Part shown: in pieces, positions 14,270 through 34,854 of the stretch | Numbering within the stretch: position 1 is the stretch's first letter | Layout: each line of letters starts with the position of its first letter | DNA from: Bacteroidota bacterium | GTDB taxonomy: Bacteria > Bacteroidota > Bacteroidia > 2-12-FULL-35-15 | Assembly: GCA_947449315.1 (NCBI GenBank) | Contig: CANFRC010000001.1 | Location: 62,001 to 126,000 of the forward strand | Direction of reading: 5' to 3' | DNA: 64,000 nucleotides | The notes under the pieces: generated by a model | What the model saw: the letters and a program-made list of their open reading frames with translations, nothing else | The model's database searches: none | Told to the model about the DNA's origin: nothing | Translations under genes and position numbers: made by a program

Positions 14270-14299
14270 TTGCAGGAACCAATCCAATCTGTATTTTTG
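14270..14299 (+). promoter_or_regulatory. Promoter of the response regulator gene
   Basis: TTG at 14270-14272, 19 bases, then TATTTTTG at 14292-14299. Transcription should begin near 14304, which is exactly the first base of the palindrome described next. Confidence 0.65.
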
Positions 14300-14303
14300 A
14301 CCA

Positions 14304-14326
14304 TTATTTAAAATCAGTCTAAATAA
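14304..14326 (+). promoter_or_regulatory. Imperfect 23-base palindrome at the transcription start (operator 1)
   Basis: The arms TTATTTA and TAAATAA flank AAATCAGTC; 9 of 11 symmetric pairs match. It lies 4 bases after the -7 box and 7 bases before the GTG start. It is identical at 21 of 23 positions to the element at 15087-15109. It looks like a repressor site of the Fur/DtxR size class; the binding protein is unknown. Confidence 0.6.
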
Positions 14327-14333
14327 CTTTTTT

Positions 14334-15005
14334 GTGGAAAAAATCAGCATTACAATCGCCGACAGTCACTTTTTAAGCCGCAAAGGTTTGGCAGTTCTGT
14401 TAAATGAAAACACTGATTTTACATTGATTGCAGAAGCATTAAGTAGTTCCGACCTTGTCAGTCAATCCAAATTCTACAAACCGGATCTGATTATCATTGA
14501 TTATACATCCTTTAATTATAGTCTAGAAGGTTTATTCCTGATAGTAAAGAAATACCCCCAATCAAAATTATTAGCGATTACCGATGTTCAACCCAATGAG
14601 ATCATTTCTAAAGCATTGGCAATAGGAGTAACTAGTCATCTGTTAAAAGATTGTGATCAGGACGAGATAATTGAAGCAATCTATAAAACGGCACTTGGCG
14701 AAAAATTTATATGTGGAAAAATTGTTTCGAACATCATGGAAGAGAAACCAGAAAATATATCCGAATATTCTTGTGAAGGTTTGAACATTAGTGACCGTGA
14801 AATGGAGATCATTAAGTTGATTGCTGAAGGTTCTTCGAACAAGGAAGTGGCCGATAAATTGTTTTTAAGTACACATACCGTTACTACACACCGTAAAAAT
14901 ATCATGAACAAACTAGGCGTGAATAATACTGCTGGTTTGGTTCTTTTTGCTGTTCGCGAAAACCTCGTAAGCCCGAATCATTTTTTGTTTTCGGCTGTTA
15001 ATTAA
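14334..15005 (+). CDS. NarL/LuxR-family response regulator
   Basis: 223 residues, starting at GTG 14334. An N-terminal receiver domain (1-118) has Asp10 in the acidic pocket, the phospho-acceptor Asp56 (DLIIID), Thr83 and Lys105. A C-terminal LuxR-type helix-turn-helix (about 150-212) carries ISDREMEIIKLIAEG and the recognition helix region STHTVTTHRKNIM. It should bind DNA as a phosphorylation-dependent dimer. No histidine kinase is adjacent. The very short leader is almost entirely the palindrome at 14304-14326, so its own expression is probably controlled by a second regulator shared with the next gene. Confidence 0.92.
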   Translation: MEKISITIADSHFLSRKGLAVLLNENTDFTLIAEALSSSDLVSQSKFYKPDLIIIDYTSFNYSLEGLFLIVKKYPQSKLLAITDVQPNEIISKALAIGVTSHLLKDCDQDEIIEAIYKTALGEKFICGKIVSNIMEEKPENISEYSCEGLNISDREMEIIKLIAEGSSNKEVADKLFLSTHTVTTHRKNIMNKLGVNNTAGLVLFAVRENLVSPNHFLFSAVN

Positions 15006-15050
15006 ATTCCATTTTTAGTTTACTTTTTTCAAAATACCATTAATTAGGTA

Positions 15051-15081
15051 TTGCCTCATCGTATCTCTCCATCTACATTTG
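15051..15081 (+). promoter_or_regulatory. Promoter of the barrel/cytochrome pair
   Basis: TTG at 15051-15053, 20 bases, then TACATTTG at 15074-15081. The predicted start of transcription (about 15086) abuts the palindrome at 15087, the same geometry as the upstream gene. Confidence 0.65.
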
Positions 15082-15086
15082 TGTCG

Positions 15087-15109
15087 TTATTTAAAATCAA
15101 TCTAAATAG
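15087..15109 (+). promoter_or_regulatory. Imperfect 23-base palindrome at the transcription start (operator 2)
   Basis: It differs from the copy at 14304-14326 only at positions 14 and 23. It begins 5 bases after the -7 box and ends 6 bases before the ATG at 15116. The matched sequence and matched position argue for a shared regulator or a shared RNA element. Confidence 0.6.
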
Positions 15110-15115
15110 ATTTCT

Positions 15116-15949
15116 ATGGCGTACAGATCAATTATTACGGTCTTTTCAATCTGTATTGGATCATTTTCAATTCATGCTCAGGACAGAATGTTTGTGCGGA
15201 CGTATCAAAGTTTGACATTGGCGAAAGGAGCAAAAGATTTAGAACTTTGGAGTACTTACCGGACTGGTCGGCAATATTTTTACAATCGGCTGGATCAGCG
15301 ATTGGAATTAGAGGTTGGGTTGACAGATAAATTGCAGACTTCAGTGTATTTAAATGTGGAGCATTCAGCCGAAGGTGCACATCTGGATACATTAGGAGGA
15401 ATAGCGGATACCAGTAGCAGCGGAATAATTAAGTCAACCTTGTTTTCTGTTTCTAGTGAATGGAAGCTGAAGCTTTCCGATCCTGTAGCAAATGCAATCG
15501 GGTCAGCACTTTATGCTGAATTAACAATAGCACCTAGCGAAGTAGAGGTAGAAGGGAAATTGATACTTGATAAAAAGACCAGCAAGAATATTTTTGCTCT
15601 AAATGTAGTGGGAGAATATGAAGTTGGTTTTGATGTAAAAAAAGGTAAAACGGAAAAGGAAAAAGAATTAAAGGCAGAAGTTGATCTTGCCTATATGCGT
15701 TTGTTGAAAGCACATGTAGGACTTGGATTGGAATTAAGGAATCATAATGTGATCGTTAAAAATCATGTCGAACATGCTGCTATGTTTGGCGGGCCAACTT
15801 TGTTTTACAGCAACACCAATTTTTTTATTATTTTAAATGTCTTACCGCAATGGTGCAATCTAAAGGTAAATGAGGCGAATTCGAAAAGTCTCGATCTGAG
15901 TGAATTTGAAAAAGTGGAATCACGATTGTTGATTGGATTTAGTTTTTAA
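15116..15949 (+). CDS. Predicted outer-membrane beta-barrel protein, unrecognised family
   Basis: 277 residues with a signal peptide ending near HAQ22. The mature part has alternating hydrophobic/polar strands (LELEVGLTDKLQTSVYLNVEH, SALYAELTIAP, KAHVGLGLELR) and ends in an aromatic residue (LIGFSF), as outer-membrane barrels do. A lysine-rich segment near 175-190 (KKGKTEKEKELK) could be a surface or periplasmic loop. I do not recognise the family. The gene for a mono-haem lipoprotein follows after 3 bases, so the two form an operon. Together they may serve electron transfer or metal handling in the envelope under control of the palindromic operator. Confidence 0.72.
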   Translation: MAYRSIITVFSICIGSFSIHAQDRMFVRTYQSLTLAKGAKDLELWSTYRTGRQYFYNRLDQRLELEVGLTDKLQTSVYLNVEHSAEGAHLDTLGGIADTSSSGIIKSTLFSVSSEWKLKLSDPVANAIGSALYAELTIAPSEVEVEGKLILDKKTSKNIFALNVVGEYEVGFDVKKGKTEKEKELKAEVDLAYMRLLKAHVGLGLELRNHNVIVKNHVEHAAMFGGPTLFYSNTNFFIILNVLPQWCNLKVNEANSKSLDLSEFEKVESRLLIGFSF

Positions 15950-15952
15950 AGA

Positions 15953-16291
15953 ATGGCATCAACGAATTATAATTTTTTGTTTTTTATCAGTACAAGCATT
16001 TTGCTTGTTTGCTGCTCTCCAATTTCTTTTAAGCCTACTCAGGATGATGTTGGACTTGCCAATAAGAAATGGACCAATGTAACCATCGAACAATTGAATG
16101 CGGGATTTAAATTTTATACAGCTAAATGCTCTGGATGTCATTTTTTGCCTGTTCCGAATGAGTATTCCGAAAAAAGATGGCTGATGATACTCCCTGAAAT
16201 GAGTGAAAAAAGTAAACTATCTCATGAAGAATATGATCTAATCCAAAAATATGTGATTACAAAATCGTATGCCTTTACAAAGAAAAAATAA
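15953..16291 (+). CDS. Small mono-haem c-type cytochrome-like lipoprotein
   Basis: 112 residues. The hydrophobic N-terminus ends in LLVCC (Cys20 or Cys21), a plausible lipobox. A single haem-attachment motif CSGCH sits at 59-63, and Met83 (LPEM) is a candidate distal ligand. The tail is lysine-rich. It is smaller and simpler than cytochrome oxidase cytochromes. It is the second gene of the operon with the barrel protein (3-base gap), which suggests the two work together at the cell envelope. Confidence 0.82.
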   Translation: MASTNYNFLFFISTSILLVCCSPISFKPTQDDVGLANKKWTNVTIEQLNAGFKFYTAKCSGCHFLPVPNEYSEKRWLMILPEMSEKSKLSHEEYDLIQKYVITKSYAFTKKK

Positions 16292-28329: not shown

Positions 28330-30207
28330 TTATTTGACGATCAGAACAGGTACTTTTACATTGTGGCGAACAGCATCTAATGTGGTACCCAATAACATAT
28401 CTTTAAACGCGCGATGTCCGTGTGCACCCATCACTAAAAGGTCGCAATCGCAATTATTGACAATCTCGGGAATACTTTTCTTCGGATTTCCAAAACCTAT
28501 TTTAGTAAAAATCTTAAATCCTTTCAATTCTAGATCCGATTTATATTTTTCCAGATTGATCTTGTCGGATATTGTTTCTAGGTCATCAATTTCTTGTCCC
28601 ATCATTCGAGCACCGGCAGTTTCTACAATGTGGATCAGAATATATTCAGCTGTGTTCCCTCCTTGAGAGAAGGCATTGCTGATGGCTTTACTATCGCTAT
28701 TGCTAAAATCAACTGTAATCGCAATCCGTTTATATTTTTTTGTAGCAGTAATGGTAAGGTCTTCCGGTAAACCATCCGGAACTGCATGTTCTTTCCTTTT
28801 TACTTTTTTCAGGATCGGTGCAAAGGTGATATAAAGCAATAATAGAGCAGCACCAGATACGATAGGTAAGATTGTAACGTAATAAATTAACGGATTTTTA
28901 GAAGCAGAAATCCATTCTTTTAATGTATCGTATACCAACTTAGCATTTAAGGAAACAATAATAAAAGCGACTGTCCAAGCGATGATTTTGATCCAGGTTT
29001 TGTTTGCAAATTCCCCCATATGCTTTTTATCGCTGGTTAAATGAATGAGCGGAATGATTGCGAAGCCTAATTGTAAACTTAAAATAACCTGACTTAAAAT
29101 AAGAAGTTCTCCCGTCGCGCCTTCACCTAATATGTAAATGGTAATAAACGCAGGTATGATTGCAATCATACGTGTTATTAATCTTCTGAGCCACGCCTGC
29201 ATCCTCAAATTTAAATAGCCTTCCATAACAATTTGTCCAGATAAGGTTCCTGTTAGTGTTGAACTTTGTCCGGCAGCTATCAGTGCTATTGCAAATAAAA
29301 TAGGAGCGAAGCTGTTTCCTAATATCCCATTTAAAAGACGGTGTGCTTCCTGGATCTCTGTAACACCGGTATTTCCAGTTGTAAAAAAGGCTGCTGCAGC
29401 AAGTATCATTATGGCGGCGTTTACAAAAAAAGCCATGTTGAGGGCTACAAATGTATCAATGAAATTAAATTTGATTGCTTCTTTAATCCCTTTGGATGAA
29501 CGTTCAATTTTTCTGGTCTGAACCAAAGAGGAATGCAAATACAAATTGTGAGGCATAACGGTAGCACCAATAATTCCAATAGCAATATAAAGTGCTTGCT
29601 TATTAGGTATAGAAGGCAAGAAACCTTTTACGAATGCTGCACCATTTGGTTTTGCAAAAAACAATTCAGTTATAAAAGCTAATCCGATAGTGGCGATAAG
29701 CGCTAAGATGAGTGCTTCCATTTTACGGATACCATGCTTTTGTAAAACCAATATCAGTAAGGTGTCGGCAACAGTTATGGATACCCCGACCAAAAGCGGA
29801 ATGTGAAATAACAGCTGAAGTCCAATTGCCATTCCTATTACTTCTGCAAGGTCACATGCAGCAATTGCAATTTCTGCCAACAACCAATTGAAAAAATTAA
29901 TTAGCGGATGGTAAGCCGTTCTGGAGGCTTGGGCTAGATCTAATCCTCTTACCAAACCCAACCGAGCACTTAAACTTTGTAAAAGTAAAGCCATCAAATT
30001 ACTCATCAACAAAACCCAAATCAGCGTATAGCCAAACTTGCTCCCTCCTGCAATATCCGTAGCCCAATTGCCTGGATCCATATAACCAACACTAACTAAG
30101 TATGCCGGACCAATAAACGCAAAAAGTTTCTTCCAGAATCCTGATTTTGTGGTCGTATCAATACTTGCATTGACATCTGATAATGATTTCTCTGAGTTTA
30201 ACCGCAT
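28330..30207 (-). CDS. mntH: NRAMP manganese transporter fused to a universal stress domain
   Basis: 625 residues. Residues about 25-465 form an NRAMP/MntH transporter with eleven or so helices; DPGNW at 44-48 and MPHN in the sixth helix region are the metal-binding motifs. After a charged linker (KRKEHAVPDGLPEDL), residues about 480-625 form a UspA domain. This has the ATP-binding G-2x-G-9x-G(S/T) pattern at Gly594, Gly597 and Gly607 (GAHGHRAFKDMLLGTT). MntH imports Mn2+ (and Fe2+) with protons; the cytoplasmic USP domain may sense nucleotide or stress. It overlaps the end of mntR by 10 bases, so the pair is an operon controlled by MntR. Confidence 0.93.
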   Translation of the reverse strand: MRLNSEKSLSDVNASIDTTTKSGFWKKLFAFIGPAYLVSVGYMDPGNWATDIAGGSKFGYTLIWVLLMSNLMALLLQSLSARLGLVRGLDLAQASRTAYHPLINFFNWLLAEIAIAACDLAEVIGMAIGLQLLFHIPLLVGVSITVADTLLILVLQKHGIRKMEALILALIATIGLAFITELFFAKPNGAAFVKGFLPSIPNKQALYIAIGIIGATVMPHNLYLHSSLVQTRKIERSSKGIKEAIKFNFIDTFVALNMAFFVNAAIMILAAAAFFTTGNTGVTEIQEAHRLLNGILGNSFAPILFAIALIAAGQSSTLTGTLSGQIVMEGYLNLRMQAWLRRLITRMIAIIPAFITIYILGEGATGELLILSQVILSLQLGFAIIPLIHLTSDKKHMGEFANKTWIKIIAWTVAFIIVSLNAKLVYDTLKEWISASKNPLIYYVTILPIVSGAALLLLYITFAPILKKVKRKEHAVPDGLPEDLTITATKKYKRIAITVDFSNSDSKAISNAFSQGGNTAEYILIHIVETAGARMMGQEIDDLETISDKINLEKYKSDLELKGFKIFTKIGFGNPKKSIPEIVNNCDCDLLVMGAHGHRAFKDMLLGTTLDAVRHNVKVPVLIVK

Positions 30208-30869
30208 TTTATTTTTTTTATGGCTAAAATATTTTTTGCTGCCTCGTTGCTAATGAAAATGGGTGTGTTTTTATTTATTATTATTTGCAGCGACTTATCA
30301 AATTCTACCATGTTTTTTATTTTGATCTCTTTACCCAAAGCAATTCCTACCTTGTCTAAATATTGCAGAAATGCTGCAGAATGGTCAACAACACCTGTCA
30401 TTATCAATACATCGTTTTGTTTGAAAACGGAAACAGGTTTTGATTTTTGAATTTGAAATTTTCCATTTTTATCTGGTATCGGATCACCATGTGGGTCTAC
30501 CTTAGGATAGTTAAGGAATTTATCTATTTGGCTAATCAGCTTCTCGGAATTTATATGTTCGAGTTCTTCCGCTACATCATGAACCTCATCCCATTTGAAA
30601 TCAAGTTTTTCTACCAAAAACATTTCCCATAAACGATGTTTTCTGATGATATTTAAGGCAACTTTTTCACCTTTGGAAGTAAGTGAAACACCTTGATACT
30701 TCCGATAATTTATTAATTTTTTATCGGAAAGTTTTTTGAGCATATCGGTCACAGATGCAGCTTTCGTTTTTACTCGGTCTGCAATGGCGTTAGTGGTAAC
30801 TCCATCTCCATCTTGTTCAATAAGTTTGAAGATTGCTTTTAGGTAGTTTTCTTCTGTAAAAGAATGCAT
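30198..30869 (-). CDS. mntR: DtxR/MntR-family metal-dependent repressor
   Basis: 223 residues, the long DtxR form. The N-terminal winged helix (1-70) carries TNAIADRVKTKAASVTDMLKKL. The metal-binding and dimerisation domain (about 75-140) has HRLWE, EELEH and DPHGDPIP. A C-terminal FeoA/SH3-like domain (about 150-223) follows. Position directly before mntH with a 10-base overlap supports Mn2+ (or Fe2+) sensing. A palindrome in its own promoter indicates autoregulation. Confidence 0.93.
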   Translation of the reverse strand: MHSFTEENYLKAIFKLIEQDGDGVTTNAIADRVKTKAASVTDMLKKLSDKKLINYRKYQGVSLTSKGEKVALNIIRKHRLWEMFLVEKLDFKWDEVHDVAEELEHINSEKLISQIDKFLNYPKVDPHGDPIPDKNGKFQIQKSKPVSVFKQNDVLIMTGVVDHSAAFLQYLDKVGIALGKEIKIKNMVEFDKSLQIIINKNTPIFISNEAAKNILAIKKIKCG

Positions 30870-30902: not shown

Positions 30903-30920
30903 TTTTAGACTAATCTAAAA
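30903..30920 (-). promoter_or_regulatory. Likely MntR operator
   Basis: TTTTAGA and TCTAAAA form perfect 7-base arms around a 4-base centre (CTAA). It spans the space between the -33 and -7 regions of mntR, a classical repressor position. The size and arms fit DtxR/MntR-family boxes. Confidence 0.65.
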
Positions 30921-34825: not shown

Positions 34826-34833
34826 ACCTTTGT
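34826..34833 (+). promoter_or_regulatory. -7 box of the desaturase gene
   Basis: TACCTTTG, an exact TAnnTTTG match, ends 21 bases before the ATG at 34855. No clear -33 TTG is seen. Confidence 0.5.
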
Positions 34834-34854
34834 ATATAATCAATCTACATAAGA

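Follow-up and report, generated by a model that had tools for sequence, protein, structure and literature searches.

In Riemerella anatipestifer, a member of the Bacteroidota, Fur was found to bind the Fur box ATTTAGAATTATTCTAAAT in gel shift assays (EMSA), and some of the boxes given in Table 5 of that work match it poorly (PMC5609570). The rhuB promoter of the same species carries ATTTAGAATTATCCTAAAT, where binding of Fur is Mn2+-dependent, and a fur mutant shows derepression (PMC10986502). The R. anatipestifer boxes are located near the start codons of iron-uptake genes (PMC5609570, PMC10986502). According to a 2023 survey of three Bacteroidales species, the molecular mechanisms of iron-response regulation are still scarcely known (PMC10434189). 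MliR, a MerR-like iron regulator of Bizionia, was considered and set aside: it is described as an activator, and no palindrome is given for it (PMC9478572).

Fur boxes of this kind are thus already known in Bacteroidota, and two palindromes in the window (the whole stretch of 64,000 nucleotides analyzed here) are, judging from their letters, almost certainly new instances, having in common with the R. anatipestifer box the 19-bp palindrome core, the phylum and the iron-gene setting. What appears newer is a conserved, putatively Fur-controlled regulator with three cysteines, and the phased upstream boxes of actA.

Twin palindromes and their promoters

Putative Fur box 1 (14304-14326, 23 bp, no strand assigned; TTATTTAAAATCAGTCTAAATAA) lies at the predicted transcription start of a LuxR-type regulator gene, and putative Fur box 2 (15087-15109, likewise 23 bp and unstranded; TTATTTAAAATCAATCTAAATAG) at that of a barrel/cytochrome operon. 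By direct comparison, the two differ at 2 of 23 positions; symmetric pairs match in 9 of 11 cases in box 1 and in 8 of 11 in box 2, so that both are imperfect palindromes. Each is preceded by a match to the Bacteroidota promoter pattern on the plus strand, namely TTG(14270-14272)-N19-TATTTTTG(14292-14299) for the regulator (14270-14299 overall) and TTG(15051-15053)-N20-TACATTTG(15074-15081) for the barrel operon (15051-15081 overall). The gap between promoter and box is 4 bp for box 1 and 5 bp for box 2, and the boxes end 7 bp before the GTG at 14334 and 6 bp before the ATG at 15116, respectively. The picture drawn in the first-pass annotation, of palindromes identical at 21 of 23 positions with full promoters 4-5 bp ahead and start codons 6-7 bp behind, thus held when coordinates, letters and gaps were measured again.

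With a palindrome consensus derived from the twin boxes themselves and up to 3 mismatches allowed, the window contains 5 matches compared to 0.75 expected, and none of 100 shuffles reached 5; among these matches, the twin boxes alone had 0 and 1 mismatch. Because the consensus came from the twin boxes, counting over the whole genome provides a fairer test. A weak Fur-box-like site with 3 mismatches (34830-34852, no strand assigned) overlaps a -7-like element 5' of a fatty acid desaturase gene.

In the promoters of the regulator, the barrel operon and sufA alike, 4-5 bp separate the -7 element from the box, which therefore should cover the transcription start. A box predicted at +1 is in the position of a repressor, and a roadblock is the best reading of this geometry. 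The alternative put forward in the first-pass annotation was a start codon-masking RNA hairpin, in favor of which it can be said that the palindrome occupies most of the leader and ends 6-7 nt ahead of the start codon. However, the predicted folds of the leaders bypass the palindrome and do not surpass those of shuffled sequences (z of 0.91 and 0.26, for folded stretches that began 2-3 nt inside the box). Pair 8-16 is disrupted, mostly as A-C, at 45 of the 63 homologous sites, and compensatory double changes were found at none of the pairs. In addition, the motif of actA is located 5' of the promoter and therefore outside the leader, which argues against a hairpin as well. We consider this reading the most improbable of those examined and abandon it in favor of a DNA operator at +1, which is favored by the geometry, by the enrichment described below and by the match to the tested Fur box.

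The motif across the genome and the class

Each twin box has 2 mismatches to the 19-bp core ATTTAGAATNATTCTAAAT. Across the 2.6-Mb genome, pattern searches with this core at up to 3 mismatches located 25 places, compared to 2 for the control, the reversed core, which is also a palindrome and has the same composition. About nine of the sites are near gene starts: those of the regulator, the barrel operon, sufA-sufB, a divergent sufS/iscS pair, hemA, ctaB (a UbiA-family prenyltransferase and, by sequence, haem O synthase), an sdhC-like gene with an sdhA-like gene behind it, and actA, whose product is a multihaem, alternative complex III (ACIII)-type cytochrome c; the names given without a Pfam match (sdhC, barrel) are a reading of sequence and neighbors. 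At the sufA-sufB operon, the box follows TATTTTTG in the same geometry as at the twin boxes. Several further places in the genome are inside genes and may be due to chance. Loose-pattern matches in genes (L006, L219, L226, L233 and L234) were treated as chance, as was one at L220 that sits at a terminator-like repeat. A 15-codon open frame (MELTKQINTYGFRIV; L003, bases 1104-1151) directly follows the sdhC-proximal box and may also be accidental.

The full-genome search proposed in the first-pass annotation thus places the gene-start sites at haem, Fe-S and iron genes. The shared regulon that it had envisaged is supported; the attribute "small" is not, given the roughly nine gene-start sites here and the class-wide distribution of the motif. 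Strong enrichment was observed in 79 relatives and then in a set of 139 genomes spread over the class Bacteroidia, where 407 sites compared to 11 for the control were found, in 117 of the 139 genomes. In distant families, the motif occurs in the context of suf, FeoA/FeoB, TonB-dependent receptors, HmuY, actA-like cytochromes and the same LuxR-type regulator.

Box 1 is kept before the regulator in relatives, and box 2 is kept in many members of the genus, the second box being mostly missing outside it. In the leaders of regulator homologues, the box (at most 3 mismatches) is present in 62 of 80 cases compared to 14 of 1600 random windows, and in 37 of the 40 regulator leaders with a recognizable -7 element, this element lies 0-5 bp before the box.

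The window also encodes MntR (DtxR family, 30198-30869), which the same annotation had suggested as a binder of the twin palindromes and whose apparent operator uses the half-site TTTAGA too. However, the mntR promoter has its own conserved operator, TTTTAGA-N4-TCTAAAA, which in the window is a putative MntR-type site on the minus strand before mntR-mntH (30903-30920) and, with up to 3 mismatches allowed, is found in 22 of 24 relatives, whereas the spacer of the twin boxes is N5; moreover, the genes that carry the twin motif have to do with Fe-S, haem and iron rather than with manganese. Binding of the twin boxes by MntR is therefore very improbable. From their sequences, the MntR operator and the Fur box appear to share a half-site and to differ by one spacer base. 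This one base may be what prevents cross-talk between the two metal regulators.

Fur as the candidate repressor

A single Fur-family protein is encoded in the genome (PF01475, E = 2.9e-27; C10:89294-89653). There is no Rrf2 protein in this genome, and binding by a member of the Rrf2/IscR/RirA group was ruled out on these grounds. With one Fur-family protein and boxes that match a tested Fur box, the first-pass suggestion of genome-encoded Fur as the repressor is borne out as far as candidates go. Both palindromes are very probably Fur boxes that repress the regulator and the barrel/cytochrome operon when iron is sufficient. Under such conditions, a dimer or a pair of dimers of Fe2+-loaded Fur would occupy each 23-bp box and, with the box spanning approximately +1 into the leader, would block promoter opening or escape, keeping the regulator gene as well as the barrel/cytochrome operon off. 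When iron drops, Fur would leave the boxes and the two units would turn on at the same time, the derepressed regulator probably acting as a second-tier regulator. That Fur binds the boxes, which metal it uses, where +1 lies, in which direction regulation runs and what the regulator does are inferred from the sequence. PerR structures score almost as well as Fur structures against the sole Fur-family protein, and the signal that is sensed could therefore be peroxide. No obvious box was found at the fur gene itself.

The distribution of Fur bears on these assignments. In a genus without Fur (G079, G115 and G143, which, belonging to one genus, represent one event of loss), there are no motif sites, and the box before the regulator is lost, the three-cysteine regulator being otherwise normal. 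In G063, Fur was not detected, yet a box with 3 mismatches is kept, and some genomes that carry a Fur-family protein have no site at all (for example, G066, G107 and G136).

The same comparisons address the possibility that the LuxR-type regulator itself binds the palindromes, in an autoregulatory mode, and masters the iron regulon. LuxR-type proteins are dimers that bind palindromes, the site in the leader of the regulator is among the best, and most relatives have a site before the regulator as well. However, in 20 genomes with 3-11 sites each, picked for having motifs and weak regulator scores, the three-cysteine signature is missing from the best one or two regulator-like proteins, such that the regulator is probably a target rather than the binder. 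Furthermore, in the Fur-less genus it is the box that is lost and the regulator that is intact, and the motif equals the Fur box tested in R. anatipestifer. Self-binding by the regulator is therefore unlikely, and we retain Fur as the candidate binder.

Putative targets and comparison with known iron regulons

The regulator gene (14334-15005, plus strand), a putative Fur target, encodes a LuxR/NarL-type response regulator in which the Pfam domains Response_reg (PF00072) and GerE (PF00196) both score over the cut-off, and the fold resembles that of LiaR/VraR. In all 81 sequences compared (the window protein and homologues L240-L319), cysteines C107, C127 and C147 are invariant; C147 is in a low-confidence linker of the structure model. 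Among the cultured organisms that carry the regulator is Crocinitomix catalasitica ATCC 23190 (L307). As for the phosphorylation site, D56 is present in 79 of 81 sequences, K105 in 69 and D10 in 71, the second acid usually being Ser; a degenerate receiver was considered and dropped given the retention of D56. It is plausible that the three invariant cysteines provide a metal, Fe-S or redox input. No study of the conserved three-cysteine regulator was found in the open-access literature.

The second unit starts with a predicted outer-membrane barrel protein (15116-15949, plus strand), read as a barrel in the first-pass annotation and from its sequence character, for which there is no Pfam match; homologues occur in L242 and L249. 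The product of the second gene of the operon (15953-16291, plus strand) is small and lipoprotein-like and has one CxxCH haem motif (KCSGCH) and a weak match to TorC. The content of the slot 3' of the regulator varies: it is the barrel and the cytochrome here and in L242, with the barrel found in L249 too; a TonB receptor in L244; a DUF4856-imelysin-HTTM set in L241, with a similar set in L245; and a porin-like protein with a Rieske protein in L247. A separate Fur box often accompanies this slot, and this accounts for the twin boxes.

At actA and hemA, the boxes are positioned differently. The actA box of this genome (C4:36073-36095) is kept in 27 of the 29 genus members with usable upstream sequence (loci L320-L349). 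Its distance to the -7 element is mostly 53 bp, with 52 or 54 bp in two members, 42 bp in two and 64 bp in one; the 11-bp deviations correspond to approximately one helical turn and appear as single indels in the alignment, probably reflecting two events. At hemA, the distance to a -7-like element, counted by eye, is 42 bp in two species. The actA spacing suggests that Fur may activate actA from a helically phased upstream box. No paper on such phased upstream boxes was found in the open-access literature.

Taken jointly, these observations allow a broader reading that we advance tentatively and regard as rather unlikely, namely, that Bacteroidia run a direct two-tier, two-sign Fe-Fur iron circuit with the regulator as its second-tier sensor. 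Fe-Fur would repress the uptake genes, suf and the three-cysteine regulator from boxes at +1 and would activate actA and hemA from phased boxes located some 42-64 bp upstream; once derepressed, the regulator, sensing iron, Fe-S or redox state, would then drive a second wave of adaptation. Were this so, a protein would do here what the RyhB RNA does elsewhere. The assignment of the motif to Fur across the class would provide a ready list of candidate Fur targets, and it exposes a conserved, putatively Fur-controlled regulator as well as a case in which direct activation of respiratory genes by Fur can be tested.

Unlike the R. anatipestifer box, the sites in the window keep four flanking bases, TT...AA at positions 1-2 and 22-23, and the predicted boxes cover +1. 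The putative targets also differ from those of R. anatipestifer, including here the LuxR-type regulator, suf, hemA, sdhC and actA. A LuxR-type regulator tied to iron/haem uptake has a parallel within the Bacteroidota in the LuxR-family haemin regulator CdhR (PG1237) of Porphyromonas gingivalis, which is described as adjoining or being fused with a hemerythrin domain (PMC10434189). Compared by description, the regulator in the window is distinguished from CdhR by its receiver domain and three invariant cysteines.

The iron-economy regulons of Fur-RyhB, IscR and Irr/RirA target suf, sdh, haem synthesis and cytochromes, and the target list obtained here resembles theirs. In contrast to the RyhB, IscR and RirA regulons, however, the sites of this genome match the Fur box, an Rrf2 protein (the family of IscR and RirA) is lacking, and control of the iron-using genes would be direct.
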